A DNA stretch of 64,000 bases from Asterias amurensis (lineage: Eukaryota > Echinodermata > Asteroidea > Forcipulatida > Asteriidae). Positions 10,601 through 62,325 of this stretch are shown here, piece after piece; within the stretch, counting starts at the first letter, position 1, and every line of letters begins with the position of its first letter. The stretch covers positions 19,142,349-19,206,348 of the forward strand of contig NC_092651.1 in NCBI RefSeq assembly GCF_032118995.1, given 5' to 3'. The notes under the pieces are model-generated. The model saw only the letters and a list, made by a program, of their open reading frames with translations, ran no database searches and was not told the origin of the DNA. A program made the position numbers and the translations under genes.

Positions 10601-13600
10601 ACATTATGATAATGCTGGCCGCCTGCACTGCAAAACAAGTTGGTCAAATCATTTTACCCAACAGTTGCCCAGCTTCCAGCAGATTCAACAAAGCAGAAGT
10701 TGAAGCAGAAGTGAAGAGGAATGACTGGCTGAAAACATTATATACTGCACATATCAGATGAATCCAGTGTGGATTGAGTACCGCAAATTAAATGCCCTTT
10801 CCGAACTGAAGTTTTTGTTGCAATATGGCGCTGTTTTTGCTGCTGCCGCTTATGAGAATTTGCTCCGGAAATCTCAATGAAATATTCTTGTTATGCTTGG
10901 ATTTTACCACCCAATTCTTGACATAGCTTCGAATATGGTGTAGTGCATCAGCTAGGACCTGTAAAGGAAAAATCAGACCTTGTTTTGCTGAAATATTCTG
11001 GATGTTTTGCAGGATGTTTCCAGTCACCTTGCTAACAGTAAGTCTTGTATACGCTTTGTCTGCCTATACTCCGTTGGGCATTGTTATCACCATGGACACA
11101 ACAATGCTTGACTCTGCTTATTACGTCACTATGAATGAAAGTGTACAGCTTGAACAAACAAACTCAATGCCATCTCTCCTGTACACTAGATCTGAACTTC
11201 TTGTTCTAAAACCTAGCAACAACTTGTGTACATTGCCAACCCATGTATTCCAAAATCTTAAGGACCTGGGACTGCTTCATCTACGAAGTCGGCGGGCTGG
11301 TTCTCATATCCGCCACCGTAAAATTAAGAGCACTATTCCAAATGTCCGAAATGGTCTGCAACCATCTATGTCACAACCCTCGCAAGACAATGAATCAAGC
11401 TATCTTAATGTAGCTCACTGGAACGTCCACTCTGCCTGCAACAAATCCCTGATCATCTGCGACTACATTATATCCCAGAACATTGATATAATGTTTTTAA
11501 CAGAAACTTGGCTTGGCTTTAATGATCAAGTAATCATTAACGAGATAACCCCACCTGGGTTCATGTGCATTAACATTCCGCGCCCCGGGGACAAGCATGG
11601 AGGTATTGCTGTCATCTTTCGTGACGAGCTTCACTTAATACATGTTCCATGTGACAATTTTGAAACTAGTACATTTGAGCATGCTCTTATATCTGATACC
11701 ACGCATCACCTCCACTTAGCAGTAATCTACAGACCTCCTCCGTCTGCAAGAAACAAACTTAAGACATCTACATTTCTCAGTGACTTCGATCGGTTCATCG
11801 AATACATTGATGAGCTACCTGGAAAACTAATCTGCCTTGGTGATTTTAATATTCACTTTGATTGTCCTCACAAACCTGATACATCTCACGTCCACACTAC
11901 ACTAACAGCCTATGGATTCAAACAACTTGTTACTGGCCCTACCCACAAACTTGGACACACTTTAGACGGCATTATCGTAAAATCTGATAATGATGAACTG
12001 GTCAGTGACTGCACAGTTGACATGAATGACATCTCTGACCACGGTGTTGTCAACTGCAAACTTCACTTCATTAAACCTCAACCCGTGCTCATGGCATCAA
12101 AGTTCCGTAATTTTCGTAAGATTGACCATGATGCTTTTGCTCGTGAACTAACAGAACGTCTCCACGATGTCACCTGTGAAGGCGACGTTGACACGGCAGT
12201 CGTGGAATTTAACTCTGCAGTAAACTGTGCTCTAGACATCCATGCACCGTTGTTGACTTCTAAACCAAAGCCCAAACGCGCTAAACCAAGATGGTACAAC
12301 AACGATGTTGATGACGCTAGACGCGGACGTCGTCAAGCGGAACGCAAGTGGCGAAAGTCCAGACTACCCAGTGACCGCACGAACTACGAACAATCCAAAC
12401 GCAAACTTGCAGAAGTGCTTGTCAAAGCTAAATCTGTCTTCTATAGAGAGTCGTTGATAGGATCCAGTCCAAATGAAGTCTTCCGCATCGTCAATAACCT
12501 CACTGGTAAACCCCGGTTAACCCCATCAATCCAGGACTCGCCCACAGTTCTTGCTCAAGCTTTCAGTAAATTTGTCACTGACAGAATTAAAAATATCCGA
12601 GCTCATATGGATGACGTTCAACTTGATTCAACTTCATCGGCTGATCTCCATACATGCCCCCCAAGTGCTCAGTTCGCGCATTTCATGCCGATCACCAAAG
12701 ATTACCTTCATAAAGTGATCAAAAACTCGGCGACAAAATCGTGCCAGCTCGACATAGTTCCAACTTGGGTATTCAAAAAGCATACGGCTACATTCTTACC
12801 GAAGCTAACGGAGATTGTAAATACCTCACTGACATCAGGTGTTTTCCAAGAGCTATTCAAAAAGGCCGTCATCACTCCTAGCCTGAAAAAACAATCTCTT
12901 AATAAAGAAGTACTCAAAAATTATCGCCCCATTTCTAATCTCCAGTACCTAGCCAAACTTATGGAAAAGATCGCCTGCGAACAACTATCCCGACATATTG
13001 TTCAACATCAGCTAGCAGAGCCTCTACAGTCAGCATACAGGCCCAATCACAGCACCGAGACTGCTCTGCTTCATGTACAAAATGACATCCTTAGAGCAAT
13101 CGACAAAAACAATGCCATTTTCATGGTCATGCTGGACCTCTCCGCCGCCTTCGATACCCTAGACCACCAAACCCTCCTGCAACGCTTCCATGACAGATTT
13201 GGTATAACCGACACAGCGCTCGACTGGTTCACGTCATACTTCAACAATCGTAAGAGTCGGGTTATCCTACCTGACGGTGTCACCTCCGATGAAACTGTTC
13301 TTCGTTTCGGTGTCCCACAAGGATCTGTTATAGGTCCTCAGGCTTTCACCATGTACCTGTCCCCAATCGGTGATCTTCTTCGTCAGCATGAGGTCAAGTT
13401 TCACATGTATGCAGATGACATCCAAATCTACGTAGAATTTGACCCCCAAATCCCCAATGATGCAGAATGCGGGTTGTTCAAGCTCTCGAAGTGCATCAGT
13501 GACGTTCAACACTGGATGTCAAGCAACAAGCTTCAGCTAAACGAAGAGAAAACTGAATTTTTCATTGCCTCTTCAAGCTGTAACTACAAACATCTTGCCC

Positions 13601-28500: not shown

Positions 28501-31500
28501 ATGTTTTTACCAAACGGTTCGGAGATATCAACACAGTTGCATTACATATGGCGTTATTTTCTCTCTAATAACTTGCTCGCGCGATACCACCCATAGTTAC
28601 CAGTTTCTGATGCAACAGTTTAATGAGGAAGACGCCACACACTGCGTCATTTCCTGTTCGTTTCTGAAGCTAGAATGAAGCCGTGTTTTGGGGGTGTGGT
28701 TTTTTTTTTGCCAGCGGGAATACACAGGTATAGCTGACTTCAGTTTGCACTGCGTTATCGAAACAACACACGGTGTTTTTGTCAGAGTCAGAATCAAGCT
28801 GTAAAAAGTTTGCATGTACTCAATTTTGTCTCTATCTTTTGTGTGATTATCATGGGGTATCACGCTGTAGTATTTGGCTCCTTGTCCCTAGTCGTGTTGC
28901 TGGTTCTGCCGGGCACGAATGCCGTGAGTTACGGAGCCTGTCCTGAAGAATGGCAGCAATGGAAAGGGTCTTGCTACAAGAGCTTATTAAACCTAATGCG
29001 TACATGGAAAGATGCCGTTGAAATCTGCAACGAACTTGATGCACATCTTGCCACGCCTAACTCAAAAGAAGAATATGATTTTATGTGGGATTTTACTAAC
29101 TCGGGTTTGGCACTCTCTACCGGTGTTTGGATTGGTTGTACGGACGAAGACGGAGATGGGGTTTGGGATTGTATCGGAGACACCTCAGACATTCGTTACC
29201 GCTCTGACTGGTGGAACAGTCCTTCCCCAGATAGTCTATGTTCTGTCTTCAGTACAAACTTTCCTAACTGGGGGTCATTTCCATGTGTCAACACTGAAAA
29301 GCATGTCATGTGCGAACGTCCAGTTCCCGTAATAACCGACTCCGTAAGTTGCTCTGTTGTCGCTATCGATCGTTGTTTGTCTGACCACACCTTTAAGACC
29401 CTCACCGTACGGGGGAAGTTGCAGTGCTGTCTGGCTTGTCACAAAGACCAACGATGCAAGTCTTTCAACTTGAGAGGAAATCAGTGTGAACTGAGTGAAG
29501 ATACCCACAGAGCCAGGCTCCTTGTATCCGATGGAGACTGTGTGCACTACGAACTGTAGGTACAGTCTTTAAACCACAACTTTGAAAATCTTGTGTAACT
29601 TTTTAAGTGCGTTCAATAGGAACAGGAATTAGGGTATTTACTACAAACTGTATTAAACATACAAAACAAGAATGCATATTGTTCAGTCGTGAACCGTTAC
29701 CTATTTCCGCTGAATCTGATAACCCGTTTCTACTGCTATACCCTAGCAAAGGTTTCCATCGACGGCGAACGATACACAGGTTTCCAGTTCACTGAAAGAA
29801 TGAGTGTACCTATATTTCAACACGAACTTTAACCTGTTTCTACTGCGAACTACAATAATATTGTTTCCATCGACGGCGAATGATATACTGGTTTCCAGTT
29901 CACTAAAAGAATTACAACATGGGTGTCCTCTACGAACTGTATATGGTCATGTACAGTGATGATGATATAAACTACGAACTATAACCATTTTTTTCATACG
30001 GCCAGAAGAACTGTAACTCGTTTCCACTACAAACTCGAACTGTATTCCAACGGACTGTAACATGTTTCCGCGTATGAAGTATAAAATTGTTTCCAGACCG
30101 GCAAGTTATAACTAGTTACCACTACGAATGTTAAAGTATTGTACTCTTTGGTATTCTCAAAATGGTTGTTAGCATACTAAATTGCTCCCTCTGAAGTAAC
30201 GTAGTTTTTGAGGAAGAGGTAATTTCTCTTAAAGACCATGGCTGAAATGCAACCGAAAGCACGAAAAGTAATGCAACAGGGGTGAATTTTCTTTCAGTAC
30301 TATCTCGCAAATTTGATGACCAATTGAGCCAAAATTTGCACACATTTGTTATTTTATGCATATGTTGAGATACACCAAGTGAGAATACTTGTCCAGTGCC
30401 TTTAACCCATTTCCAGTACGGACAATTACATGTTTTCAGTGCGAACGAAACCGCGCATGTTTCCACCTTAACAGCTACCTGAGCGGAATGTTTTCAACAG
30501 AAATGGTATTTTTACTTGTTTATAATGCACTTGTTCACCATTTTAATGTGATTTTGATATGTGTACACTTCTGAACTTTTCGTAATTATCGATTAAAAAA
30601 TCAGGCCCCTACCTAAAGGTTTTTTGAAAAACTAAAAATACTTCTGCCGTTGAGAGCGGGCGTCAAAGGACAATGCCGCTGACGTCATTTGTGGGAGTTT
30701 GCTTTGTTATACATCCGCGCTGCAACAAAGCGGCTTTATCTACTTATGACGTTTTGAGAGTGATTACGTATAACGGGGCTTTTCGCAAATCTCGCAGAAA
30801 AGCTCTGGATAAGGGCATACTAAATGATTGGTTTTTTTTACACAATTGAAACCTATTTATAATCATATGACTCGATTTCCTTATTCATCGAAAACATTTT
30901 AAGTATTCATCGAAAACATTTTAAGTGGAATTCAGCAAAGTTTACGACTTGACATTTTCGTTCAAGCAGCTCTTTAATACAAGGCGAGTCAAAAGTAAGT
31001 TGAACGGGATTGGTGATGTTTTTCCAAAACAAACAAACAAATGCGACTCAAAAGTTCAGTAAAGCATATATTGAACAAGCACTCTCTCGCACTCTCTCGC
31101 CTATTAGAAAAAGAAAAAAAACATAATTATAAGCATAAAACCTTACTCGGTATACGAGTAGTGGGGAGAGGTTGATGGTATAAAACATTTCGGTAAACGG
31201 CCCCCTCTGAAGTTACGTAGTTTTCGAGAAAGAAGAAATTTTCCAAGAATTAGAATTAGATGTTTGAGGTCTCGAAATCAAGCATCTGAAAGCACACAAC
31301 TTCGTGTGACAAGGGTGTTTTTTCTTTCATAAAGTTATCTCGCAATTTCGACAACCAATTGAGCTCAAGTTTTCATAGGTTTGTTATTTTATGCATATGT
31401 TGAGATACAAGTGAGAAGTCTGGTCTTTGACAAGTACCAATAGTGTCCAGTGTCTTTAAAGGGTATATGTACTTTTTCATAACAAAAAACACAATGTCCA

Positions 31501-34500: not shown

Positions 34501-37500
34501 TCTAGGTTAAAGAATATACCATTCTAGGATAAATATACCATTCTAGGATAAAGAATATACCAATCTAGAATAAAGAATATACCATTCTAAGATAAAGAAT
34601 ATACCACTCTACAGGATACCATTACTTTGTTTGGTTCTAGTCTGAGGTGACTTGAAGATTTGTAATCATTTGTTCGTGCAATATGTTAAAGGAAAGCTAG
34701 GAAAGTCTGGTTGGTATGACGCTGCTTTAGAATAGCAAAAATCGTGGGTTTGAATCCCACCAGAGTAACATGCCTGTGATTTGTTTTCACAGAGCTTGGG
34801 TAAACGCTGAGTAACGTCCGTCGATGTCGGTTTTTTCCCATAACCGATATATCGAAAATTTAATATCGAGTATACTCGATATATCGAGTATTTCCCGCGC
34901 GCAAGATGGAATCCTAAAAACAGCACTTGGTATACTCATGGAGGTAGAAATATATATACCGTAGACTGACAGTTTACACGGCCGTCCCAATTCCATTGAC
35001 GCAGTGTCAATAAAGTGCACCAAAATATTTGTTAGAGATTCGTTACTCCAATAATGTGTATTAATGTGAACGACAAAGATGGCGTCGTATTGTCCGTAAC
35101 TAGGGAATCAAAACATTGAATTAAACATGTGTTTTATAATAAAAGACAAATCCCCTTACGAATTTAAGTTGTGAGTTGTTAAATATGTTTTAAAAGGTCA
35201 TACATTTCATGTATTAGAAACACTATTTCAGTGAGAAATATATTAAAAAACGATGTTTCTTAACACGATCGTGTGGAAAATTAAAACATTCGTGGCGAAA
35301 ACCGACGGACAAAAGTTCGCGTAAAATAAAAGAAAATAACTTTTTATTTGTAAACCGACCTACAATTTGGATTATTTACTCAAATGTCTACATAAATCTT
35401 GATTTTTAAACTAAGGGCAGCTCAATTTATCGAGTTGTGGCCGTCAGATTCAGCAAGGTTTTAGCTGTTCGGTGTTTTCCCACGCGGCTTCACACAACTA
35501 ACCCACGCGTCGTCAACATACCCCCAGGTATGTCCAGTTTCCGGACACCACTTTTTGGGAATTCAAAGTCCTTTAATTGTGCATAACGTGGGTTTTGATC
35601 TTATTAGAGTTAAACTGACTGGACATTTAGTTAATACTAGAGAAATAAGTTCATACTATAGTTTACAGAGACGTTAAGCAATACTTCAAGGAGAAAATAG
35701 GGACAAAAGTTTACGTCTGTTCACGTGGTTTGCGCAAAGTAAAAAATTTGCGCAAATAATGAATGTGTGCGCACCGACCTGTTTTGCGCAGTAGGTTTCT
35801 GCGTTCTAACGTAGTGCGCAAATACAAAATGTGTGCATTTGATTAATTTGCGTAGATAGCCACATTAGCAATGGCGCCAAGTTCAATTGTGTTAAAACTT
35901 TAAAATTTAAGAAAACAATCTCTAACGTAAGCGGCGCACCATCGTTAGGTATTCTCATCATCATTAGCATTGAATACAATTCAGTCGAGACACTGTAAGG
36001 AATAAAAGTTACATTTGGCACAGTTTTGGTTCAGCAAATTTTATTTTGTTTTATTTTAATTACTTCTTACAATACAATGGAACTTTTCAAGAAATTATGG
36101 AGCACCACCAGGCAGTTTTGGCAAAATTGTGCCGTATATGTGCAAGAAGGCTAGAAACTGCAAAACAAAAACAAGCTGGTAAGAGTAATACAAAACCCGT
36201 TGACTGTTCGAAGTACAGAAAAGAAGCGTATGCTGTTTTTAATTTAAGTACATGGGAAGATAACCCGGAGGTTCACCCTGGATCAGTCTGCTATAAATGT
36301 TCACGATCTCTACGCTATGCATCACAGGGCGACAGATTAGATAGTAGTCCTGACCATGAAAATGCATTACGTTTACCAAGACTAAAGTGGACAAAGCATC
36401 CTAGGACTGGTGAATGTGATATCTGTGAGCAGTTTTCTAGGCAAACTGTTGGGGGTCATCAACCGAACAGAGAGCGACCCGGTCAATCTGTAATTGTTAA
36501 TTCCAACAAGTGTACTTTACCAACACATGATCTGTTTGGAATAGAAAAGGACAACTGCACTTCTGTAAGCCCTTTGCTTGAAATTTGTGGCAAATCTTCC
36601 GAGGAGCAAAACATTTTCATATGCCCCATTTGTCAATGCATATTGAGCAGTCCAGCCATCCAAACACTCTGTGAGCATAATTTTTGTGCCATTTGCCTAT
36701 CCTCCTGGTTTAAGTACAACAACAGCCCTGAGGTACCATGTCCAGTGTGTAGGCAGCCAGTACACTTCACAAATGTATCACCATGCCCAAGAGTTCTACG
36801 CTTTCAATTGAGCACATTGACAACAGCTTGCTCAAAATGTGGCTCTTTAGGGAAATTAGAGAAAATGCTATCGCATGAATGCCCCTCAAAAAAAGCCGAC
36901 TGCCATTGCAAGTTGTGTTATGCACCCAGTGAACCTCCACCCTCATCTGAGGAGTCAGAAATCATAAAGGCAGCCAAACTTCTGGAAAAAGTTGCTTCAC
37001 AGCATGTAAGAGGGACTCCAATTCCACCCCAAATTGAAGCTGCAGCAGACAGGTGGACATGGCACAAGCTGAAGGTTCATGGAACTGCAAAGCTGAAAAC
37101 CCCTGGTAGGGTAAGTACATTCAAAAAGTATGTTCATACTGTGTTCAAGTTTGATTTTAAATGTCAGTAACTAAAAGTAAATCATTAATAAATCATTGTT
37201 ATCCTTTTTCCAGTCCGCTTGTGTTCAACTTAAACGTAAAAGTGCAGAGACCACTACCAACAATCACGTGTCCACAAATCAGCCATCTGACAACAAAAGC
37301 TTTACACCTGATCGTGCTTTAGCAATGATGAGAGATTGCCAGCTTGCCTGGGAGCAGATCCGCAAAATGCGAAGGTAGATGACATATCCTTTTCAATAAT
37401 TGAATTTTTTTCCTAATTGTATGCATCAAATAAAGCAATTCAGAAATTACCATTGCTTGTAAATAGTTCAACAGTTCTAAAAAGATAATCTTTCAAGATT

Positions 37501-40500
37501 TGTACTGATGCCTTTGCAGATATCTTGGTACACTTGGAGTGACAGTGACATCAGAGCGACAGATGCGGAAACGACAGAGCAGTCTCTTGAAAGACAACTT
37601 ACACGGTTGTCTTCAGCCCATGCTCCTTCCATCCAACAAGGCTACTGGGGTAAATGGAAAAGTCACTGTAGATGTCCCCTTTGTGTTTGTGAAGGATCTC
37701 CCTGCGATGATCCTTGATTATCTTGAACGACATCAATCGTAAGTGCATTCTAATAAAATAAAACAAAAACATCATCAAGTTTTAACCAATCGCATGAAAA
37801 TTTAAAATCTTTGTGGTTATAACAAAATTAATTTGTTTGTGTCTGCTTGTGTAGGAAAGGATCCCTGACTTGGCATAACGGCGTTATTCCCGAGAACGAG
37901 ATATGGATTAAGGTAGGTGGGGATAAAGGAGGAACCTCCTTTAAACTCGCCTTCCAAATCGCCAACACCCACCGCCCCAATTCTCTTCAAAACACTGTGG
38001 TATTCGCTTGTTTTGAAGCTCCAGATTCGACTGCTAACTTACAGTGTCTCATTCCGATCCTTGAGCAGCTGTCATCACTTCAACGTCAGACTTGGAGGTA
38101 ATGTAAACCATAACAGTAGTACGCATCTCAAATTCACCATCTAAAATTACGGGGGGGGGATTTGAAAAGGTATATTAAAAATAAAACTGAATTGGGTTTT
38201 CAATGTTTTCTTAATGATTAATATATTTGGATAACTAACACACAAATCTGTCTTTTCAACATGTTGAATTTAGAGAGAAGATAATCCGCACATTCGTCTT
38301 TGGAGACTACGAACTTCTCACCAAGATTTATGGCATCTGCAGCTGCAATGGTAAATAAACCTTTCAATTTTGTTTTCTTACATTCCTTCTGTAATACTAC
38401 GATGCAAATTACAATCTGCTTGCTTATTTTAATATATTGTTTGTTTGACAGCCCGTTATTGCTGCTTATATTGTCACACCTCAAAGGCTGACATGCAGGC
38501 TCCATTGGAAGAACAAGATCAAAGTGTTCAGTACAGAAGCCTTGCATCACTTGCAGAAAGTTACAAAGCATACCAGGAAGATGGCTGTCGCAAGGTTCGG
38601 GCAAAAGACGTATCAAACAGTGTCATAGCAAAGGCAATGATTCCTGTTGAGATTGATCAAGTAAGTTATTGATACATGTGGGTTTACATTTGGTGTAACT
38701 TTTTGTGTTTCAACATTAATTACAAATGTTTTTGTAATTTCTTGTACAGGTGGTGATTCCTAGTCTCCACATATCCCTCGGCATCTACAAAAAGTTGTTT
38801 GATATGTTCGAAAGCAGCTGTCACAACATTGACCTTAAATTGTATAAGTGGTCTGTGGAGTTTGCTGATGAGGACGACGACAACAGTGCAACCAACTTTG
38901 AACAGCAGATCTCCAATGAGTTTGAAAGGCAACAGAAGATCGACAGTGTCATGACCCAAAAACAAAAAGAGCTAGAACAACTTGAAGAGGAGCTACCATT
39001 GCAATTTTTTCAAGACCAAAAAAATGCGGGGAAAGCATTCGAAGGAATTGCTAACAAGGCCTTTAAGATCCGATGTGAACTAGAGGAAATGGTAATTCAA
39101 ACATTTTTCCTTTAAGACTATTTGAAATTTAATTTCAGCTGCAGGTTTTTTTTTCAACATCAAATTACCCAACTACTTACCTATATTGTACGTCATATTG
39201 TTGTTTGACAGGAACACACGCAGAATGTTGCAGATCTGCCATTTGGCACCGGACCCATCGCCAGTGGTCTTGATGACACCCTAAAGAGACACAGAGTAGA
39301 AAGACAGGCGTATCATGGGAAGGCCTTTGTGGGCAACCACGTACAGAAGTGTTGCAGGGTACATTCACATTCAATTTAGTTGTATTTTATTGTTCCAAAT
39401 ATGCCTATTTATAAACAAACTTACACATTTTGAGTGTTTTTATTCATTTTAATTTAGATAGAAGTCATCAAAGACCTTACAGCCACGCCAAAGAATGTGA
39501 TGAAAGATATGATATGTGACACCATCCCAGTTGTCAGATACACCGACCTAATACGCGAGGCTTCATCAATTGGTGAAACCTTCATGGAAATATTCATGAA
39601 GTTCGCCGATGTACACTTTGCCATTAATCATGCCAAAGCTGTGTCAACAGAAGACTTAAATCAAATTGGTATGTAATAAAATCATGTGGGGAAATTACTT
39701 TTAATTTTTATTATTTTCTTAATTTTATAGATCCTCTGATGCCACAGCTTTATTTAATATGTCTTACGTAATTACATTTCAGACGCCTGTATCACTGACT
39801 TCATGTCTTCATACCGAAGGATGTTTCCAGGTCATTCAATTACCCCCAAGATGCACCTCCTGGAACGCCATGCAGTGGAGCAGCTTCGGAGATTTGGTGT
39901 AGGGTTTGGACTAATGAACGAGCAGGGTGGCGAGCTCGTCCACACTGAGTTCAATAGAACAGGTCGTGTTGTTCATGGTATGAAAGATAATCTGCAGCGT
40001 CTTCTCACCATCATGAGGCGTCATCATGTTAGCACCACACCAGAAATCCAGGCTCAGGTGATCACTGCTGTAAAAAGACCAAAGGAGGAATAAATGTTTC
40101 TGATAACAATATTGATTTAATCTACGTATACATGCAAATAGAAAATTTTGAATGTAACCAGTCACAAAATGTGTTTTTTGAAATATTGACTTTAACATGT
40201 TTATAGAAGGGGGGTAACATGATTAACATAAATAGCGTAAGAAATTAAGTCGGATAAACAAAACAAAAGTGTATCTGACGACAATACGTAGATCTACTGT
40301 TCTTGCAAATGTAGCTTTACAGTCTTTCCAACTTTGAATCTCCAACTCAAAGTTTGTCAACAAAAGTTAGCATAGTTAAATTAGGCCTGACTGATAAGTG
40401 ACTGTATATATTGAGTGCTTGTTATAATTATTTGTAAAATTTACCAGGAGTAGAGTGCCAAAAATAACTAGAGACAGTAATTGGGGTGCTGTGTTATAAC

Positions 40501-43500
40501 TCCCTTCAGTTCAGGATAAAACAAAACAAAAATAGGAATACAGCACCCTGGTTTCTGGATTGAAATACATGTACATAAAATAAACTTGTTCCGTTCTAAA
40601 CTTCTATTTCTAAGTGCTTAATTCTTAATGTTCTGCTCTTCGTCAAAGTGTTGATTGTTAATTTGTTATTGCAATGTATATGTACACCCAAGTTGACTAG
40701 TTTACTTCCTATTTCGAATCACAGAGCAGCCATGCTTTCATTATGATTAGGCCACACACGACCATGTACACTTTACACGTGTGTACATGACCGACCGTCT
40801 CCATATAGTTCCACGCGTGGCCTATACACAAAACACGTTTATGAAAAACGTAATGTATGTACATGTGTTGTACGTGTGTACACGTCCGTATAACGAACGA
40901 AAAACTGAAAAACATTGTCAAACTTTGTCTTAAAATTAGGATAAAAACCGAGCTGCCCTTACCTTTTTAGACCCACGATCTTCTGCAAAATACACACTCC
41001 TTCTGTGAATGGCTCACGTTTCTAAAATGTTAAGTTATATTTTGGTCTGATTTGCCGTTTTTTTGTGACATTGTGGCGAGTACGTTCGAAACGTTTGGAG
41101 AAAACAGCATGTCTAAACTTGGCCCAAGATTAAAAAATAGTTGACCTTTGACCCAAGTAAATAAAGAAAACAAACCACTGCGTCATAGATACGCCCACTT
41201 AAAAAAATTGTTTGAATAATTAACCTAAACTAATCAGGGGTGCCGCTTGTTTATCTTGTATGCAAATTAGGCCGTTACTTCCGTGATGGGCACATTGCGC
41301 CACGCAAAAGAGGCGGGGTTTAAATGACAAAAGTCATCCGCAAGAGGGCGCTATCTTATTTTATGTATGATACGGCCGTGTTTAATAGGGTTACATTTCA
41401 ACCTGTTTTTGTCTGATCCCCCGAACTTGTTTGTAGTTCAAACAATTTCAAATTGCGTAGTCCCGCCCCGATTATTTCTGGTTTTACAACAAAGTATGAT
41501 CGCCGCTACCGCTGGCTTGGCCATTTGGTGAACGCTCACCACAATTCTCGATTCGTGATTGGCCATGATTGGCCGTCTCAAAATGACACAGAGCCTTTGT
41601 GAGTTGCGTGACTCGCCGACATTAAGGTGTCAGTTGCCGATGCATTGACGTAGAAGTGTCAATCAAGTTGTCCGACAGGCGCCCGGACTACCTTTACGGT
41701 TGAAAATGGTTGAGATAATCATCGAAAAAAAATCACTAGAAAGTCCCGCAAAACACAGACCTACCACTCCGCATGCAGTCACATAGTCTCCAATAAAGGC
41801 TCGTAGTCTTTTTACTTTGCATTCTATAACAAAGGCAAGAAACATTGAATGCTAGAACGCCCTCTACTGTCGAAATAACGCAGTGCATCACGCGTTACCG
41901 CCTTGACCAAAGACTGCACGTGTCTGTGCATGCTTGGGCAAACGGGTTTTCCCCCCGAATTGCAATAACCATACACGCTGGTGTGCACACTTAAACCGTA
42001 CAAAAGCATAGTCTTCGCTGGTACGCACGCAATAGCCGCCGACAGCGTGGTCTGTGCTGCGAAGCATAAAGTTCCTCGGAAATGTTAGCTTGTTTACCGA
42101 AAACAACACAACGTGTAGGCTTTATTTGACTACGAAACCTTGGATTGTTAGAAAGATTATTTTACTATATAACGTAAGATTGTTTTCTTCCTTGTTTTCT
42201 TTTGTCTTGTTGATTCGGGGAAGTTTTTGCGGGGTGAAGACGCATTGATTTTGATCACATGCGCAATGGGAAGTTGCATCTTAAACAGCCGATGGGGCAG
42301 CAGCGGCGGTTTCTTTTGAGGTTTTACCGAGCGCTCGCCGCGGGGTCGTGAACTTCTGCGGCGGGCCGGCGGCTGATGGCGAAAACACAAAGAACAAGCA
42401 GACATACTTGGTTGTAAAACGTATTTTATTTAATAGGGCAACTCAAAATGATGAAACTACATAACGACGACGGCTTTTCTAATACTCAAACACAGATTTC
42501 TTTTAAATAATCGGACACTCTTTTGGTATTTTCGATATCATTTAGGAACATCGAAATTTTCAAAACATCGAAATTATTTTCGATATATCGAAAATCCGAT
42601 ATTACGATATGATTATAAAAGTGATATCGGCGATTTCGATGTCAAAAAAATATCGAGTTTTTGAGTATTTTCGATATATCGACGGACGTTAACGCTGAGT
42701 ATACAGTGCTAACACACATCGGTGTAGGGGTAAAACCAAAATTAATATTCTTTATCACCGATGTCAATTTACACCTCTGAAAGAATAGCTTTACAAATAA
42801 TGAAGGCCCTGTCTTTTAACAGTTTTAGTATAAACCTTTTCAATTTTATTTCACAGAACCTTCAAATTTTAATTGCTTATTTTGTCTGTTTCTCTTGAAG
42901 GATTTTCAGATGTTTACGTCAAGGTTTTAGTTGTAGGTAGTATTAGTCTGGCGCTGGTATCATTTTATCTTTCATACAAACTGTGCAGAAAGGTAAAATG
43001 CTGGAAAAAGCTTTGGATCAACTCTACAGAGGAGACTAAAATATCCGTCAGGAAATGTAAGTATTCCCTAAAAGTGCTCTATCGCAAGAGGGCCTCTCCA
43101 GGCCTGGGGGGGGGGGGGGGGGGGGGGGGGTTACATCATGGAGTAAACTTTGGAAGCAAATTGATGGTTCCATTTGAGATTTGGACAATGTAATAGAGAT
43201 AAGAAAAAGCACCACAGGGACTCGAATTCACACTCTGCTGATCAGAACATCTGCAGAATTTCAGTCTGGTGTGTTAGACAACTAGGATATTACACGCCAC
43301 TATAGGGTTAAATCACCCACAAATACCATGTAACTTTACTTGCTACTCATCACCAAGGAGTAAATAACAATAAAAATAACAATATCGCAGTCTTGTATAT
43401 ATATAGCGCACGTATCTACCAACAAGGTACTCAAGGCGCTTAGTATATATAATGTATACAGCAAAATGGGTACTTAAATTTGGCGTTCATTTGTTTGCCA

Positions 43501-50951: not shown

Positions 50952-53900
50952 ATGATGAGATCGGCTTCTGACGTCAGTTTGCTTGTTATCGTGGTAGCGG
51001 CCATAGTTAATACCTGCACAACTGCATACTTTAAAGGTAAGCATTAGTGATTTAAATTATATTTAAAGCAAGCTGACAACTCACTGCCTTGAAAATGCTG
51101 AATTTAAAAAAGAAATTATTGTTATTTTTTGTTTGATATCTGCTTGAAATCAAACAGTAAAGGAAAGGGCAAACCATTTGGTGTGAGTTCTTTGATGCTA
51201 TTTTGTTTTGTGGTTTGAGTGTTATGTTTGTTTTGGGTGTTTTTTTCTCTTTCTCGATCCAACACTTTCACAGGTAAAACACAATGCATTGCAGTGGAAG
51301 AAGTTTTCATTCTATTTTGTTTTATTAGACAGTTGATGATTTTTATCTGTTGATAATAATTAAAAAAGAAGGGGGGAAAGCAACGATGACACGTTAATTA
51401 CACATTTTTGAAGTTATGTCCATCGCCTAGATTTGAATAGACATAATCATCCAACCAAACGAAATTACGTGATCACGCTGTTTATAATAACATTTTATGG
51501 GTCTAAGTGCACAAATCGATGGCAGCAAACGCAACAAGGAAAGAAAGATTGATCTTTTTTAGATGCTATTTCCTTCTAAAGTATTGCAGAAGGAAATGTT
51601 TCTCCAAAATGGTTGGTATTTGAGTTTTAGAACCATTCAGATTGAAGCTAATTTCCACTGATAACTATACCGATTCTGCATATTTAAAAGCTCACTAACA
51701 CTACATTGCTCATACGGATCCTCTATTCAAAGAACTCTACCTTCTTAACCTCGATAACAGCAACACATACCATCAGAACATCTTCATGCACAAATTCTTC
51801 AACAAACAACTTCCCACTCACCTCCAATCGCTCTTTACATTTAATTACAACATTCACGACCATAACACCAGAACTTCATCAAACATTCATATTCCTAAGC
51901 GCATGACACAAGTTTTCAAACACACGATTCGGGACTCTGATGCGGCCAACTGGAACAAGCTTCCTAGTGACATCAAAAGCTCTTCCTCAATTGAATGTAT
52001 TGAAACGTGAAGTCAAAGCCTTCCTCTAATTCTACTATGTGTTAGCTATTTTTCTGTTTTGTATTAATACTTAGTTTTGTAATCATTACTTATCGTAGAT
52101 TCATGTAAACTCTTGCAGCTATTTCTGTAAGTGCTTTGTGTTTGCCCACCTGTCTGTCCCTACCGTCCGTATGTCTGTAAATGTTTTTGTCTTTTTGTCT
52201 GTCTTGTCCTGATTGCCATCCCCAAATCAAGCAAACGCTTAACGGGGATTGCCACCATTTCACTTACTCTGTCCTTTTCCTACTTTTATTATTTAGTATC
52301 ATTTAGCTGTTTTAATGTTAATCTTTATTTTGTATAATACTTGTAATATTGTTTGTGAAATGGAAATAAACGTTGTTGAATTGAATTGAACTGAAAAGCA
52401 AAATAAAACTTTTTTTTTTTTGAATAGTCCGATTGTTTTGATCTTTAAATGCACATGTGGGCCTATGCAATACAACTAACATGAAAAAAATTCATTTCAA
52501 AAGGTGATTGCTTGAGATATCGCAAAAATCCGGAGCAAATGACCAAGCTGGAAGAATCTGAGAAACGTTACTGACAGTAACGCTTCACATATAAACATTT
52601 AAAAAGGGGATGTTAATGATACACTTTTTTAATACCAAATTACTTCGAAGTTAAATGTTTTTCAAAATTATTATATAAAGCTGATGTAGGCTTCAAGCCT
52701 TAAGTTGCCATTAGTTCTGAGAGCATACCCTAATCTATGCCTTATCTTTAAAGGTGGTCCAAGATATATATTTTTTTACAAAATGGGTTTTCCTTTAAAC
52801 CCCCTTTACAGACGGTGATGTTCGACTCGACACTGGACAGAATGAGGTATCACCTTACGAAGGTGTGGTTCAGGTGTACAACAACGGCAGCTGGGGTGGC
52901 GTTTGCGCGGGAGAATTCGGCAATGAGGAAGCCATGGTTGTATGTCGCCAACTCGGTTACAGACTCCACACGCGTACGGCGAAGTCACAGGACATGTTCC
53001 CCGGGAATAACAACATGGTGGTGACGGTGAGCTGGCTGCATTGTTATGGGATAGAGAGTTCGCTTGGGAACTGCAAGACTGTTAAGTATGAAACGGGTGC
53101 GAGCCTGACTGTATGCCTTGATGATTGGGATGTGGCTGCCGTTGCATGCAGCCCCATTGATGGTGAGTGTGGCTCTTTATTTTTCTCGCCGCTATTCAGT
53201 TACTGATTGTTTCATTTATGGGGGTACGGGCAATTTAAAAATATAATTTCCCCTTTTAATTTGTCTTTAGGGCCTAGAACTACTGAAATAACGTTAATTT
53301 TAACGATTATTTTACTTTTTGTCAGCTTTTATAATGCCAAAGCTAAATTGATTCAAGTTGGGACTCGTTCATTATTTTAACGAAAAAGCTCTGGAAAAAA
53401 AAACGAAAAAAACTTCCATCTTCCACAAAAAAAAAAGATTTCGTGGTCTACATGTCTTACGAAACTGGAAAATATGTACATATATTATTCACAAAACCCC
53501 CAAATCGCAATCATCACTCATGTACGTTCCACCAATGCGCATGACCCACACGCATAATGTTTGAGGATGAAATGCGAATCAAAGAAACAAATATATGTGG
53601 GATGGCACTCCTGAAGCTCCGTACAAAACAGTTCAAATCTTAGAAAACTATTTACAGCATGGCGTCCATCTTGGCTGCCTGATTTTTTTCTCTCTTTTCG
53701 AAGACACATTGCGGCATTTTTCAAGACGGCACTTGCGCATAATAACTATTTATTTGTTTATTTTAATTTTAATTCTTTGGACAATACACAAATTATGAAA
53801 ACAAGCAGAGGCCGTCCAGGGAAAGGCAAAAGTCAAAAACTGTTATAGAAACAAAAGTTAGAAACTGTCATCAAAAAAGGTGTGCCCTCCCGGACCTTTC

Positions 53901-56900
53901 TCGTAAAAAGGTAAAAATTTATATACTATTCATACCACATAAATCTAAAATGTGCCATAGACTTCCTATGTAAAGTTATTGTGATGAATACGGGCTCTGA
54001 GGATGTGCATGTTTTTACAACATGGCTTACAACGCGGAGAAGTCACGTTCCAATTAGGCTGTGTAATGCTTTTTGTGAAATAAAATGTACATTCACGGCA
54101 TATCAAACATCCACATGACGTGGCGAGTGACAACCAAAATCAGTCGACAATGACATCATTTGATTCTTCCAATCTATGCATTACACATGCCAAAGTCATT
54201 AAAGGCACCTGGAAATAGGATTTTTTTCTTTTAAACATAAGAGTATATGTTTATTAACAATAAACACATTTTTTGAGTAATTGTTTGTCACGATTTATGT
54301 GTTAAAAAAATTAATTAAGTGACTGGGGGGTTGACTCCGCCTACCCCTTTTGTGACGTAGGAAAAGGAAGACTTTGCCTCGATCAAACATAGACCCCCTC
54401 GATGCGTAGATAAACACGCGTGCAAAAGTACATGTAATTCTAAGACGTGAGTTTGTACGCTGCGAAAAAGGTTTTTTTCTGGCATTTTTCCGGCAATGCC
54501 GACCAGGTGTATTGCTGCTGGATGCAGCAAAACAACTCAAGATGGGGTCAGTCTTCATCTGTTTCCTGCAGATCCCAAGTATAGGCGGTTGTGGGCTGCG
54601 AAAGTCAGATTAACTAGAGCAAAGTGGTCCGGTCCGACGTCTTTTTCAGCGCTGCAGCGAACACTTAGAGCCGTCGTGCTTCGAATCCTGGATACACAAC
54701 TCATTTGACATGACGAGAAGAGCCATTCTTAAACACGACGCCGTCCCAACGATTTTTCTAGCTAGTGGGAGGGTATCTGAAAGACGTGACGAACTCAGAG
54801 GAGCATTTGTTAAACGTGAAAAAATTCGGGTAAGTTTGAACTTTGAGGGTATGTTTTTAGCTTTTGCCAAGTGACACGATTTTTTGTTGGTACCGCATGC
54901 GATTCACCGTGCGTGCAGGTCCTATGTGACCGTCCGCCCATTAAACAGCAGCCATAGTGCGTGCGTGCGTCTGCTCCGTGGCCGTATTTCTATAATAATA
55001 CATAGGCAGACCCACATCTTACAACCCATTTGGTCACTAAAAAGTCGCATAGTTAAATAAAAATAGCAGCAATAGCTTTTGTAAAAACCACTAGGCGTTC
55101 AACATGTTCAAGTTTCAATGTACGTATGTGTGTAAAATCGTGTCTTAATTTGTTTTGATGTACCATGTTCCCAGACGTAATGTACGGGGGCCCGACTACA
55201 AATTTTCTCTCAAAATATCGCGCCTTGAAATACGTCACGAACAGCGCCCTCTCGGGTCGGGGCCTACTCGTAAATTTGTAAATACAATCAAAACTAAGAT
55301 TTTTAAACCTTAGTTAATTTTTTATTCACATTCCTCTCATAAAAACACATATTTTAGTGACAAAAGCTTTATTTAAAAAAAATACCACTTCCAGGTGACT
55401 TTAAGTTCGATTTTTAAAATAAGTAGGCCTACATCACACACAAAAAGTTTCTCAGTCGGGTAAATTAGAAAGTGCGCTTTATAAGTTTTGCATTATTAGT
55501 AATTATATTATTGTTTGACATCACTCTTACAAACAGTGTATACAACCTGCAAGAAAACGGGGAAGAATTATGTTAGTTCTTCGCTCACCAGTGTTGTACC
55601 ATTGGTGACCATGTACGAACTCCAATGTAGCAGTCATGAAAGAGCCATTAGACGAACCCATATCACACATCCATAGATATTCAACCCATACCACACACTC
55701 CACAGATATTCATCTCAATTTGTAGGCGGTACTACTTTCCGAGCTCGATAAAGTCCTTCCCAGATAATTATCAGTCAGCGTATAATTCTCGCATAGTTCA
55801 GTCCCAAACTTCAAAGACAAACAAATAATGTTACCCTTTACGTACCGTCAGTAAACCTCACACAAGTGAGATTCTCGATCATTCCAAAACCACCAATCAG
55901 CAAACCAACACCTTATAACCCGCGCCATTTTTAATGTACAAACGGACGGGTCGGCAGTTTTTCGGTGAATGTCCAAGGAGAAGTGTATGGTCCTATATAT
56001 AGGACCACGAGCAAACGCTATGCATCTCTGTACAACATGCATATAGCATGACAGCTCGGAATGTTCCAATCTTCCATTTGTAGTCTTTGACCCAGCTATT
56101 TACACAAAGAAACTCATTCACTTCTTACAGCACCGTTACGTCATTTCAGAACTAGCCTTGATCAAGGCGCTACAGCCAGCCGCGATCTGCAAAATCCCAG
56201 TCCCCATCACTGAATTCCGCCAGCGCACCCCCATACATAACACAGTGCATATAATACGTGTACTACAGCGTATGTACACATACTTACTGTACATGTACAT
56301 GTACCATCTGTATACGGTACACTTACGGTACTTGGGTACCTCCCAAGTAGTGTTGTTTGAGCCACGTGTATGAGGTTGAAAATACAAAGACACGACCGTT
56401 CTCACGACTACACTATACTGTTCTCGCTGTACAATGTATGGTAATGTACATTTGTGTATGCACTGCATGCGTGTGCCGCGAACCGGGCCGGGGAACAGTA
56501 CGTCAACAGCCTTGATCAAGGCTATTTCAGAACAAGACAAAAAGAAAGAGGTAATGTGCATAACAATGCACACATTATCTCACTCATTCCAAGCAAGATC
56601 CAAAGGGAACAAGCCCCACTCATTTGCTCTTGAATATGAAGGAATGAAGCCCCTACTCGTGCTCTATTTATTTTTGGTTCTGAATAATATTTCAGTGCCC
56701 CACTGCACGGTCGAGTATACTAACGTCCGTCGATATATCGAAAATACTCAAAAACTCGATATTTTTTTGACATCGAAATCGCCGATATCACTTTTATAAT
56801 CATATCGTAATATCGGATTTTCGATATATCGAAAATAATTTCGATGTTTTGAAAATTTCGATGTTCCTAAATGATATCGAAAATACCAAAAGAGTGTCCG

Positions 56901-59900
56901 ATTATTTAAAAGAAATCTGTGTTTGAGTATTAGAAAAGCCGTCGTCGTTATGTAGTTTCATCATTTTGAGTTGCCCTATTAAATAAAATACGTTTTACAA
57001 CCAAGTATGTCTGCTTGTTCTTTGTGTTTTCGCCATCAGCCGCCGGCCCGCCGCAGAAGTTCACGACCCCGCGGCGAGCGCTCGGTAAAACCTCAAAAGA
57101 AACCGCCGCTGCTGCCCCATCGGCTGTTTAAGATGCAACTTCCCATTGCGCATGTGATCAAAATCAATGCGTCTTCACCCCGCAAAAACTTCCCCGAATC
57201 AACAAGACAAAAGAAAACAAGGAAGAAAACAATCTTACGTTATATAGTAAAATAATCTTTCTAACAATCCAAGGTTTCGTAGTCAAATAAAGCCTACACG
57301 TTGTGTTGTTTTCGGTAAACAAGCTAACATTTCCGAGGAACTTTATGCTTCGCAGCACAGACCACGCTGTCGGCGGCTATTGCGTGCGTACCAGCGAAGA
57401 CTATGCTTTTGTACGGTTTAAGTGTGCACACCAGCGTGTATGGTTATTGCAATTCGGGGGGAAAACCCGTTTGCCCAAGCATGCACAGACACGTGCAGTC
57501 TTTGGTCAAGGCGGTAACGCGTGATGCACTGCGTTATTTCGACAGTAGAGGGCGTTCTAGCATTCAATGTTTCTTGCCTTTGTTATAGAATGCAAAGTAA
57601 AAAGACTACGAGCCTTTATTGGAGACTATGTGACTGCATGCGGAGTGGTAGGTCTGTGTTTTGCGGGACTTTCTAGTGATTTTTTTTCGATGATTATCTC
57701 AACCATTTTCAACCGTAAAGGTAGTCCGGGCGCCTGTCGGACAACTTGATTGACACTTCTACGTCAATGCATCGGCAACTGACACCTTAATGTCGGCGAG
57801 TCACGCAACTCACAAAGGCTCTGTGTCATTTTGAGACGGCCAATCATGGCCAATCACGAATCGAGAATTGTGGTGAGCGTTCACCAAATGGCCAAGCCAG
57901 CGGTAGCGGCGATCATACTTTGTTGTAAAACCAGAAATAATCGGGGCGGGACTACGCAATTTGAAATTGTTTGAACTACAAACAAGTTCGGGGGATCAGA
58001 CAAAAACAGGTTGAAATGTAACCCTATTAAACTGTCAGTCTACGGTATATATATTTCTACCTCCATGAGTATACCAAGTGCTGTTTTTAGGATTCCATCT
58101 TGCGCGCGGGAAATACTCGATATATCGAGTATACTCGATATTAAATTTTCGATATATCGGTTATGGGAAAAAACCGACATCGACGGACGTTAGAGTATAC
58201 CGTATATGAAGAAAGACAACAATACGAACATACTCCTCGATATTGTATAGGGACTGAGACAATAACATAAACTGTCCTTCATTTGGGGATGTAGCAATGT
58301 TGGACAATATTTTACATTACAGGGCCGGTGTCAGATGCAATTGTCGGCCGAACATTTCCCATATCATTCATGACATGCACTTAGCAGGTACAAAAATGGC
58401 GGACACGGTTCCGTCGACCAAGGGCGTTTAATTGAATGTCAGACAACACCGTCGAGTTGTCCGAACGGACGAGTTGCTCGACGGATGAGTTGTCCGACGG
58501 ACGAGTTATCCGACGGTGGAAGTGTCTGGTCTCCGTTTAATTTCTTACAAGGACAGTTTTGCACGGGGGTGGACACAATTGCATTATGCAGCAGCGTCCG
58601 GGCGGACACGATTGCATATGCAAAACCGTCCGGCGGACATTATTGCATATGCAATAATGTCATCCGGATAGTATTGCATGCGACACCGGCATGGCCTCAG
58701 TTTTCTTTGCATTAAGCTGCTCTCTGGATAAGCAGACAATTATTGCTGAGCAGAAATGAGCAGGATACCAGGCAATACGTACATGAGACATGGTACTGTG
58801 GCTATTATCTTATTCTCGTACATAATTTTGATCTGCTGAACAGCAACTTTTCGTGTTAGTTTAAGGCAGCTTAGTGCACATAATTATTCTGGGAAACCAA
58901 GCTTGATTGCCAGTTCATCTACCCTTTAACAGCTGCCATGTCATAAGCCCTTTTCACACACTATAAAATGTAGTTCCCGGGAAATTCCCGGACAATTTTG
59001 GTCGATCTTTTTACACTACAAAAAAACTCCCGGGAATTTCCCAGGAATTAACTTGTTCCCATAGGAAATAATTAACCCTGATCAGGGGTAGGGTCAAGGG
59101 GTAAAACATTTTCCCGTGAGACGACCGTGTATATTCCTATAACACAGCTAGGGCCTACTCCCCCGGGAGTTGCCAAATTGGGATAGTTAGAACGGTTGCT
59201 TGGGTGGCGGTAGGGTTAAAAACTCATTGGATGTGTCCAGGCTTTTATTTCACGGGAAAAATAAACCATGGCTCTGTAGTATAAAAAAGGGGTTATGCTT
59301 TACTGAAAATTGTGTACACGTATACACGAGTCATTATGTAAGAAAAAAGTGAAGCAAACAATGTTCGATTGTTATTCTCATTGTACAGATTATGCAGTAC
59401 GTTTGATGGGTGGAAGCAATCGTTTTGAAGGTAGGGTGGAGGTATACCACAGAGATTACAGCAGTGGGATATGGGGAACCATATGTAACGATTATTGGGG
59501 CTACTCCGACTCCAAGGTAAGTGCAAAACACTCTAAAAGCCCTTTTCATTACACTACAGAGGAGTTTTAATCTCGAGAGTTTTAACCCCCACCACCGTCA
59601 ACCCAGCAATAGACTTGAGTAAACTCCCAATCTCGTGTCGTCGCCAGACAGAAATTATTGTTTTGTGATGCTCTGCATTCCCCCAAACCTGTTCCATTCT
59701 CGGGACCACATTTTTGGACGGCGAGTGCGATATGCTTGCGGACTTCTCACACGAGAACGGGACTTGAATCAAGCATGGAGGAATAATTTCCTCCATGAAT
59801 CAAGTACAAGGTTGTAGCTAGGGCAAATTGGATGCTTTGTCGAGAGCATGGTCGAGAGGGTGGGTGTACATGTAGGGGCAGCGTAGCGCCTCACAACCCG

Positions 59901-62325
59901 GTTGGATTTTTAGGTTTTGTTTAAGCTTTGATTGGTTCCCCAGGCTCTATCTTGCCCATTTGTGCCTTGACATAGCCATTGTCAAAGGAAAAAACATGTC
60001 CAGGGAGCCATAGAAAATAAATACTTATTAAGTTTTAAAGTAAAATGTTAGGGTAAAATAAATAAAATTAATATTCTGTTTGCGATTTAAATCCCATCTC
60101 AAAATAGGGTAGGTAGACTACTAGGCAGAATTTTTGAGTGTTGAGTTCATCAATTGAAAAGCTTGCAGTTGCATATATTCATCAGTAGGCAATCAAAGTG
60201 GAGAGACAAGTTCAGAAACACAGGATGACGGGACACATGTCCGATCACCCGCAAAATCTAGACTATTCCATTTCAAAAAGGAGCACATTAGTAAAATAGA
60301 AAAGCCATGTTTCACTGAGTTGTATTCATTGACAATTTCTCAACGAAGTACATTCAATAAACTCAAAAATTGATTCTTGTCATTTCATTTTTTTTTTCCA
60401 CAAGTATTAATAGACAGGAAAATCATCTAAATAAAATTCTAAATAAAAATTTAATGCAACTTCGACGACTCCCATCAACATTGTCCGCCTATCAGAATAA
60501 CTTTATTTTCAACCGCCCGCCGGGCGAGTCAACCAAAATTCTTGATCGCCCGCAGGTTTTTTCACTAGCCTGCTGCATGTATGTTACAAAAAAAATTGAA
60601 ACTAAAAACAAATATTAAAAAAAACACGGAAGTGAAGTCCCTAAAATTGGACGACTTTATCTCTTAATTTATGCCCTAAATTATCAACAACCATTTGAAT
60701 GAACTTGTTGTTTGAGAGTTGTTTGTTTTGAACATGTTCTGATCTCCGTTTGCAACAAAATCTTCGTGAATCAACGATCGGTCAACAACACACATTGAGA
60801 AATAATTCAATGAACTTTGGCCCGCAACGCCCTCTGTTGGCAGAAGTTGTCCATGTTACTAGAATTCCTCCAAGGCTGTGCATTGTGCATACAGTCTGCA
60901 GGCGTGATGCACAACGTTCGCCAATTCTTTACTCCGTTCGTGAGCGTGTATTGTGAAGAAGGCTAGCCAAGAAGATCATGAATATGGATTTATTAACAGC
61001 CATCAATGGCCAATCACAGCGTGCGGAATCTTGGTTACCGGAGATTGTGCGTGATTTTTTTAGTACTCCATAGAACTCGCAGCATTCAAGCTGCTTATTT
61101 TTAAGCAACAATCACGGAGAAGATCGCGGTTTTGGAGAGAAAATTGTTTTGATTGTTTTTACAGAAATAAAATACACATCTAATTAGGAGTTTTACATGA
61201 TTGTTTTCTTTATTTTTCACTTATTTCAATGGCATTTAAAACAGTTTTACATAAATTTATGCCGGTCGGAGTTTGATATTTTTTGTTGGATCCCGGTCGG
61301 CAAAAGCTGGGGCCGGTCATAGCCGACCGGCTCCGACCGTGGTAGCTACAACCAAGTATAATTCCCGATACCTCATTTCTGTTATTATAGTGGTTCTTTG
61401 TTTGCTTTTCTGTCTTAACACCGTTCCACGGTAACTTTATAAGAGGTTTGACCAGTTCGAGATCTTAGTTGTAACGAGAGCCGACTGTACATATTGTAAT
61501 ACCATCTTGGTTTGTTATCTGCAGGTAATATGCCGGCAGTTGAAGTACGGTAATCCCGAAGAGGCGCGAGAGCGTAACGGTGACTACTACAAGGCCGGGT
61601 CAGCTGGCATGCGCGTCCTCCTGGATAACGTTGGCTGTTACGGGGACGAGACCACACTGGCATCATGCCCACACCGGGGATGGTACATTGAGAACTGCTA
61701 CGGGAATACGGAGCTTGCTGCAGTTGTGTGTGAACCAGCAAGTACGTCATACCTTTATCTGAACCCGTTTGCCCTTTTGTCGTGTCCCCTGTGTTCGGAA
61801 ACAACTGAATGCGTCCCAAATGCACCGAAAGGGAGTCAGACGTTTGAGCATGGTTTGACCAGCCACCGTCGGTTTTATTAAACAAAAATATGTGAATGGG
61901 AAAAGTAAAGGGGCTGCAATTAATAATAATGTATAATTTTTTTGTTAAGCATTGTTAGTAATAATTGTGCCGTTTAAAATTGTTTCTTTCTCTTAGTCGA
62001 ACAAGGCTACCTGACTGTGGGAGCCATTGCGGGTATCGTGACGGGTTCAATACTAGTCATTATATTCGTTATGATGCTCGGTGCTGTCTGCTGCAAGCAA
62101 ATGAAGAACAAGAAGAGGTCTCGCACTGATCCCACCTCTGCCACCACTTATAATCAGAACTCCACATACATGATCTCACGCGGCTCTGCCGCAGCTCCTG
62201 GTGTCCATCTACCAGCTGGTAACCAACCCGGTGTTGTGCATTACAACGTGGCAGCAGTACCACCGGGACCACCTCCGTATTCCGTCGTAGGCCCGCCTGG
62301 TTCAGCCGTCGCCGGGTACCAATAG
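50952..62325 (+). CDS. Transmembrane receptor with two SRCR domains
   Basis: Five exons: 50952-51036, 52812-53162, 59389-59516, 61525-61741 and 61997-62325 (TAG), in phase throughout, giving about 369 residues. Exon 1 is a signal peptide ([15 protein letters not shown]). Exon 2 encodes SRCR domain 1 ([45 protein letters not shown]). Exons 3 and 4 encode SRCR domain 2 ([55 protein letters not shown]). Each domain has six Cys. Exon 5 has the transmembrane helix ([20 protein letters not shown]), a Cys/Lys stop, and a tail with PPPYSVV, a PPxY-type WW-domain ligand. It is likely a surface scavenger or recognition receptor. Sea-star and sea-urchin genomes hold large SRCR families; this ligand is unknown. 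The start is the first of two adjacent ATGs. The second intron contains a THAP exon and a transposon derivative. Confidence 0.88.
51690..52385 (+). mobile_element. LINE 3' fragment
   Basis: A broken frame with [28 protein letters not shown] and [17 protein letters not shown] matches the C-terminal tail of non-LTR retrotransposon proteins. It ends GGAAATAAACGTTGTTGAAT followed by TTGAA repeats. It is 5'-truncated in the first intron of the SRCR gene and differs from the 11 kb LINE. Confidence 0.78.
53163..54495. other. Intron of the SRCR gene, no gene recognised
   Basis: AT-rich sequence with several short A-tracts (about 53,396-53,440). I see no exon, RNA gene or clear repeat. Confidence 0.4.
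54496..54829 (+). pseudogene. THAP zinc-finger exon with a 1-base frameshift
   Basis: From ATG 54496 the frame reads [33 protein letters not shown] and W-x-G, the first half of a THAP domain (C2CH zinc finger, DNA binding). After SFSA (about 54,651) one extra base shifts the frame. In the next frame the expected second half continues: [13 protein letters not shown], then [14 protein letters not shown] (the AVPTIF box). It ends at a GTAAGT donor at 54,830. All metal ligands are present if the two frames are joined. It may be a decayed gene, a transposase relic or a single-base assembly error. It lies in the second intron of the SRCR gene on the same strand. Later exons were not found. Confidence 0.72.
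54830..56712. other. Intronic DNA between THAP exon and transposon derivative
   Basis: No gene is recognised. A doubled GCCTTGATCAAGGC palindrome (near 56,155 and 56,508) and tightly spaced TACATGTACATGTAC words near 56,290 are the only notable structures. Confidence 0.4.
56713..56720. repeat. 8 bp target site duplication (GAGTATAC), left
   Basis: GAGTATAC precedes TAACGTCCG here and is repeated exactly at 58,193-58,200 after the other terminus. Confidence 0.92.
56721..58192 (-). mobile_element. 1,472 bp non-autonomous deletion derivative of the RAG1-type transposon
   Basis: In inverted orientation it contains the right 1,307 bp of the large element (41,385-42,691) joined to its left 165 bp (34,812-34,976). 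The sum, 1,472 bp, equals the length of this copy. The joint sits in GTTTA, present at both breakpoints (34,972-34,976 and 41,380-41,384). Several long stretches read identically, including an 82-residue frame (57,007-57,255). The termini are the same 14 bp repeats, and GAGTATAC is duplicated at both sides. It lacks the transposase gene and would need it in trans. Confidence 0.93.
58201..59388. other. Intronic DNA with repeat fragments
   Basis: Repeated CGACGG/GAGTTGTCCGACGGACG words near 58,450-58,520, GTCCGGCGGACA-like repeats at 58,590-58,680 and a degraded GGCCCAATTTCAT-type fragment near 58,690-58,870. CCCGGGAAATTCCCGG near 58,976 and CTCCCGGGAATTTCCC near 59,027 are partly mirrored. No exon precedes the acceptor at 59,388. 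Confidence 0.45.
59517..61524. other. Third intron of the SRCR gene
   Basis: No exon or RNA gene is recognised. CACGAGAACGGGACTTGAAT near 59,750 recurs near 18,850, marking a dispersed repeat. The rest is unremarkable. Confidence 0.45.

Follow-up and report, generated by a model that had tools for sequence, protein, structure and literature searches.

A Chapaev transposon with a RAG1-like protein layout, nested within a hAT-type element in the starfish Asterias amurensis

A window of 64,000 nucleotides from the starfish Asterias amurensis (assembly GCF_032118995.1, contig NC_092651.1, positions 19,142,349 to 19,206,348) harbours a ten-exon gene whose predicted product combines a RAG1-type N-terminal region with a transposase. 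The gene lies inside a 7,880-bp unit bounded by terminal inverted repeats (TIRs), which an initial annotation made from the sequence had described as one complete transposon. The locus raises the question of which mobile element the gene belongs to, and where that element begins and ends. With high confidence, we assign the gene to a complete, apparently autonomous cut-and-paste transposon of the Chapaev superfamily (reportedly treated by Kapitonov and Jurka in 2007), recently inserted into a non-autonomous hAT-type element (Table 1).

Nested architecture of the locus

The 14-bp TIRs of the unit (TAACGTCCGTCGAT, at 34812-34825 on the plus strand and 42678-42691 on the minus strand) match without mismatch, and on either side of the unit stands ACGCTGAG, a repeat of exactly 8 bp and no longer, in agreement with the initial annotation. 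Two more exact TAACGTCCGTCGAT matches are present in the window, at 56721 (+) and 58179 (-). They belong to a 1,472-bp copy that matches the 7,880-bp unit at 100% identity over the first 165 and last 1,312 bp of that unit (BLAST, with a 5-bp overlap). This copy has its own 8-bp duplication, GAGTATAC, and is uninterrupted at the site where the unit carries an inner stretch of 6,404 bp. This inner stretch starts with CACGGCCGT, ends with ACGGCCGTG and has TTTA at each flank, the repeat being exactly 4 bp long. Joining the inner flanks after removal of 4 bases gives a string present in the empty copy, and removal of 3, 5 or 6 bases gives no match.

We searched the whole genome (G000, 491,506,623 bp in 23 contigs, with the window on contig 4) for further copies. 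Among 12 regions compared, a copy on C15 matches the 7,880-bp unit solely over unit positions 166-6569, and a copy on C10, called C1, matches it over positions 166-6566; the matched portion is the one missing from the 1.47-kb outer copy. Because the inner stretch recurs alone, has its own ends and 4-bp duplication, and is absent from the empty copy, the unit is an inner Chapaev transposon inserted in an outer non-autonomous hAT-type element. The inner insertion site is uninterrupted in 31 of the 37 other outer copies, with at most 4 errors allowed over 28 bases. In five of the remaining six (L012, L034, L040, L041 and L043), a deletion covers the site region according to BLAST, and the sixth, L024, is a 97-bp remnant. 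The empty site is therefore most simply the original state, the gene-bearing element having arrived later.

The C15 copy (6,405 bp, duplication GTGT) is 99.953% identical to the window copy, with differences in 3 of 6,405 alignment columns; it keeps every splice signal and differs by one amino acid. C1 is 98.5% identical to the window copy and is flanked by ATGT, and the same family includes two partial copies, F1 and H1. We also used as a query P0001, a protein that its source lists under Asterias amurensis and whose residues 1-348 are found in the genome at 100%. The initial annotation is right in its proposal of a potentially autonomous transposon with a RAG1-type N-terminus in an echinoderm. 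The search with P0001 gave at least 88 matches, with 46 of 229 first-look candidates scored. Most of the matches lie on C10, at approximately 8.97-12.5 Mb and 18.4-18.7 Mb, a clustering that may be biased by the scored subset. Two related families were recovered, with ends resembling those of the window family, CACGGCTGT...ACAGCCGTG: family A (P0001) comprises three copies 99.0-99.8% alike with duplications CTCC, AGGA and CTGT, and family B (P0002) two copies at 99.15% identity, one with GGCT. D1 is a broken family-A-like copy, and E1 and G1 are more distant. Across the three families, 7 of 8 copies have an exact 4-bp duplication (3/3 in the window family, 4/5 in families A and B), the left end is CAC in all 8, and the right end is GTG in 7. 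The exceptions weigh against our assignment: copy B1 of family B has no duplication, and the 3' end of C1 is TTG instead of GTG. The motif GAGGGCGC (window 41344-41351) is common to the right ends of all three families, starting 34-37 bp from the end.

One alternative holds that the gene, rather than encoding a mobile transposase, is a host copy that has been domesticated or is dying. C1 has one stop codon, F1 and H1 are fragments, and 8 synonymous and 17 other codon changes separate the window copy from C1, with a non-coding difference of 1.36% and a pN/pS of 0.58, a value that counts in favour of this alternative, though with too few changes for a firm conclusion. Since two near-identical intact copies occur on different contigs with different duplications, and since conserved acidic and zinc-ligand-like positions are retained, we regard this alternative as very unlikely.

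The inner element has the features of a Chapaev transposon. Its predicted protein matches DUF1280 (E 5.7e-18, 65.8 bits, cut-off 25) and harbours the core motifs D488, D557, C576-x2-C579, L647-H648, H899-x4-H904 and E921/E925. The element shares with RING-bearing Chapaev elements the CAC...GTG ends, the 4-bp duplication and a DUF1280 transposase in which the C(2)C, LH and H(4)H motifs are present. The passages on Chapaev in PMC4079192 list as hallmarks generally 3- to 4-bp duplications, 5'-CAC...GTG-3' ends and a DDE core with these three motifs, and give a 3-bp TWA duplication for Chapaev3; the duplications of the window family (TTTA, GTGT and ATGT) are 4 bp, hence distinct from the latter. 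In the wider CMCT clade, ends are mostly CA..TG and duplications 2 to 5 bp, according to an account in PMC12730594. An assignment to Transib or RAG1-like (ProtoRAG) elements, with which the element shares the core fold as predicted for P0001, is most improbable, since its duplications are 4-bp and not 5-bp as described for Transib and RAG1L in a section of PMC8355894, and since part of PMC3985635 equates DUF1280 with Chapaev and places it in the clade that contains RAG1. In the list of open reading frames between the inner ends, no frame other than the exons exceeds 134 residues, no search having been aimed at a RAG2-like gene.

The outer family was characterized from its TIRs. The 14-bp TIR occurs 210 times genome-wide (102 forward and 108 reverse), and its reversed pattern 0 times and once. 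From the first 100 listed TIR places, we took TIRs that face each other and a small number of irregular places, and retrieved 40 stretches, of which 36 contain a TIR pair; L045 and L046, the two halves of one 10.9-kb span, L047 and L048 have none. With the two window copies included, 37 of 38 pairs are flanked by an exact 8-bp duplication of maximal length 8 (35 distinct), and in the exception, L024 (97 bp), seven of the eight bases are equal. A shifted-flank control gave 1 match of 1,368. The hAT transposases prefer targets of the form nTnnnnAn. The outer duplications have a weak preference for T2 and A7, found in 16 of 35 at each position (p 0.004, for positions picked after the counts were seen and with an assumed base frequency of 0.30). 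One copy, L021, which shares the TIRs and is flanked by an 8-bp duplication, codes for a BED finger (E 2e-10); a separate frame gives a weak hAT-dimerisation match of 20.5 bits (cut-off 21.4). Because of these matches and the 8-bp duplications, which are those of hAT elements in the overview in PMC12730594, we class the outer family by its sequence as hAT-type; the target preference fits this assignment. Both window outer copies are non-autonomous, unlike a complete hAT element.

As to the dynamics of the outer family, the two window copies, one of them split by the Chapaev, and L029 (C4:19210532-19212003) all lie within approximately 35 kb on contig 4 and are 100% identical with different 8-bp duplications, which looks like local hopping. 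A 12-bp palindrome, TCGATATATCGA, is found three times near the outer element ends and, in the window, is confined to the two copies; its repeats are candidate binding sites of the hAT-type transposase. L025, L026 and L027 (C4:2.2-2.65 Mb) share the duplication TGCCCACC and are for that reason probably one insertion within a repeated segment.

These data bear on the view of the initial annotation that the TIRs and 8-bp duplication bound the gene-carrying transposon. Taking the 7,880-bp unit as a single RAG1-type transposon and the 1.5-kb copies as its internal-deletion derivatives accommodates the perfect outer TIRs and duplication, and a single founder deletion would also give the same junction in 31 of 37 copies, yet this explanation is hardly credible and was overturned by the free-standing inner copies, given that the 6,404 bp occur alone elsewhere with their own ends and 4-bp duplications, that the empty junction lacks exactly one TTTA, and that the sister copy L021 encodes BED/hAT-like sequence instead. 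A multi-copy family, whose absence would have counted against the initial annotation, does exist, and the inner element is itself multi-copy.

The transposase and its likeness to RAG1

The ten exons, joined by predicted splicing at GT-AG introns throughout, form a frame of 977 codons without internal stop, as the initial annotation had it. As read from the sequence, its statement that the gene shows no visible lesion is correct with regard to the reading frame and the splice sites. The protein keeps conserved acidic and zinc-ligand-like residues. Two of the protein searches gave P0001 and P0002 only, and a C-terminal search returned 14 proteins, the 7,992 candidates sharing most words being scored.

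A profile built from residues 1-290 of the window protein, P0001 and P0002 matched P0009 (E 4.1e-15), P0012 (3.4e-14) and P0008 (1.2e-7). P0009 in turn matches the Pfam RAG1_imp_bd domain above its cut-off, with E 2.7e-7, whereas the match of P0008 (5.1e-4) falls short of it. The putative Chapa / RAG1 N-terminal domain of the window protein is linked by profile to a protein that matches RAG1_imp_bd. The RING matches zf-RING_2 (28.8 bits, cut-off 27.3) and zf-C3HC4 (25 bits, cut-off 21). The element had been proposed to be a RAG1 N-terminus element; it has a RAG1-type N-terminal module, together with a RING and a full transposase rather than on its own.

In the core, the predicted structure of P0001 has a RAG1-like fold. 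The corresponding RAG1 residues are D600, D708, C727, C730, H937 and H942, and E962 is named in PDB titles; the D, CxxC, HxxxxH and E spacing of the window protein is close to that of RAG1.

Several results weigh against a RAG1-type reading. The window protein has no match to RAG1_imp_bd at E values up to 10 and is among the four of six scanned proteins without one. The RING and next finger match the RAG1 chains 3jbw and 1rmd at rows 30 and 33 among the best 60 of 152, behind RING2, BRCA1, TRIM and other RING chains. The predicted structure is that of P0001 rather than of the window protein, with low confidence over the N-terminal third; an AlphaFold model of the N-terminal part (pLDDT 45.9) was too poor to use. 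A HMMER sequence profile of the core relatives matched no RAG1 or Transib chain among PDB chains, which sets the window protein apart from RAG1 and Transib at this level. Because RAG1 chains rank behind other RING chains, we dropped the RING as a sign of RAG1 kinship. What makes the protein RAG1-type is, as read from the sequences, its Chapa region together with the order of its parts.

Exon 1, which encodes the entire N-terminal module, is followed by a phase-0 intron. Translated similarity breaks at the end of this exon in two related families too, with exon-1 products 36-45% identical. Since the module is one exon and similarity breaks at the same place in these families, it might be a movable cassette, and the vertebrate RAG1 N-terminus might have been acquired by exon transfer from a Chapaev-like to a Transib-like element, as opposed to common-ancestor inheritance; we consider this rather unlikely.

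Features of the window

Coordinates are collected in Table 1. Outside the nested elements, a 1,097-residue open frame (10927-14220) looks by eye like a LINE endonuclease/reverse transcriptase, and frames at 28738-29559, 52799-53206 and 61435-61881 resemble, also by eye, C-type lectin and SRCR domains, as in immune-receptor-like genes. ARAGORN found no tRNA genes in the window.

Table 1. Features of the nested elements and of the predicted transposase gene (window positions).
Feature	Position	Strand	Evidence
Outer duplication ACGCTGAG, left copy	34804-34811	.	exact 8 bp
Outer hAT-type element, left part, ends in one inner TTTA	34812-34976	+	identical to 56721-58192 copy
Inner duplication TTTA, left copy	34973-34976	.	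exact 4 bp; single TTTA in empty copy
Inner Chapaev transposon, 6,404 bp, CACGGCCGT...ACGGCCGTG	34977-41380	+	recurs alone on C15, C10
Exon 1, residues 1-338, entire RAG1-type N-terminal module	36097-37110	+	frame; domain/profile evidence
Exon 1 contents (residues): Chapa-type Cys/His region ~4-120; RING 176-219; further Cys/His finger ~245-262
Exon 2, residues 339-391	37214-37374	+	GT-AG
Exon 3	37520-37738	+	GT-AG
Exon 4, D488, putative first catalytic Asp	37855-38097	+	frame; conservation
Exon 5, D557, putative second catalytic Asp	38274-38350	+	frame; conservation
Exon 6, C576/C579 pair	38452-38660	+	frame; motif
Exon 7, LH motif 647-648; long helices in model of relative P0001	38750-39091	+	
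Exon 8	39212-39358	+	GT-AG
Exon 9	39458-39668	+	GT-AG
Exon 10, H899-x4-H904, E921/E925, stop codon	39783-40093	+	frame; motif
Inner duplication TTTA, right copy	41381-41384	.	exact 4 bp
Outer hAT-type element, right part (TIR on - strand at 42678-42691)	41381-42691	+	TIR; identity to empty copy
Outer duplication ACGCTGAG, right copy	42692-42699	.	exact 8 bp
Empty outer copy, 1,472 bp	56721-58192	-	100% identity to outer parts; duplication GAGTATAC

Known relatives, proposed mechanism and significance

Panchin and Moroz (2008) reportedly found RAG1 N-terminal-like sequence in N-RAG-TP, an Aplysia element. By its description, the window element shares with N-RAG-TP such sequence in a mobile element, and differs from it by also having a complete transposase core; N-RAG-TP is portrayed in part of PMC8355894 as made wholly of the RAG1 N-terminal-like part. 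The kind of element itself has already been described, in passages of Kapitonov and Koonin (2015, PMC4411706) that report two Chapaev subgroups with a Chapa domain followed by a RING, similar to RAG1. The window element has the same order, a RAG1-type N-terminal region and then a RING, the Chapa domain being met only through relatives; it differs, in a comparison by published features and not Repbase sequences, as a starfish family with two near-identical intact copies. Among the matches listed from open-licence papers, no title concerned such a Chapaev element in Asterias. The window element is a recent Chapaev insertion that looks intact and encodes a protein laid out like RAG1; it belongs to a known kind.

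We propose a single protein chain in which an N-terminal zinc module of the RAG1 type, RING included, would precede a DDE transposase whose RNase H fold resembles the RAG1 core. The transposase would bind both inner ends and cleave next to the CAC terminal bases by means of D488, D557 and E925 (or E921). The excised element would then integrate elsewhere and generate a 4-bp duplication. By analogy with RAG1, for which tuning by a RING ubiquitin ligase is reported in a section of PMC4411706, the RING module may modulate the transposase through ubiquitin-ligase activity.

Had the 7,880-bp unit been a single element, a RAG1-type transposase would have broken the 2- to 5-bp duplication rule of its clade; with the boundaries corrected, this most unusual trait disappears. 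Flawless TIRs and duplications on either side of a gene can be those of a host element, and here only the genome-wide copies revealed the nesting. What remains is an intact-looking, multi-copy, recently inserted echinoderm transposon that unites the two halves of the RAG1 plan in one protein: a zinc/RING module at the N-terminus and a core like that of RAG1. On the basis of domain layouts, Kapitonov and Koonin argued, in a part of PMC4411706, that a common ancestor already had the two halves in fused form. Such an element would make this idea testable at the bench, by asking whether the RING affects transposition and whether the core cuts DNA like RAG1.

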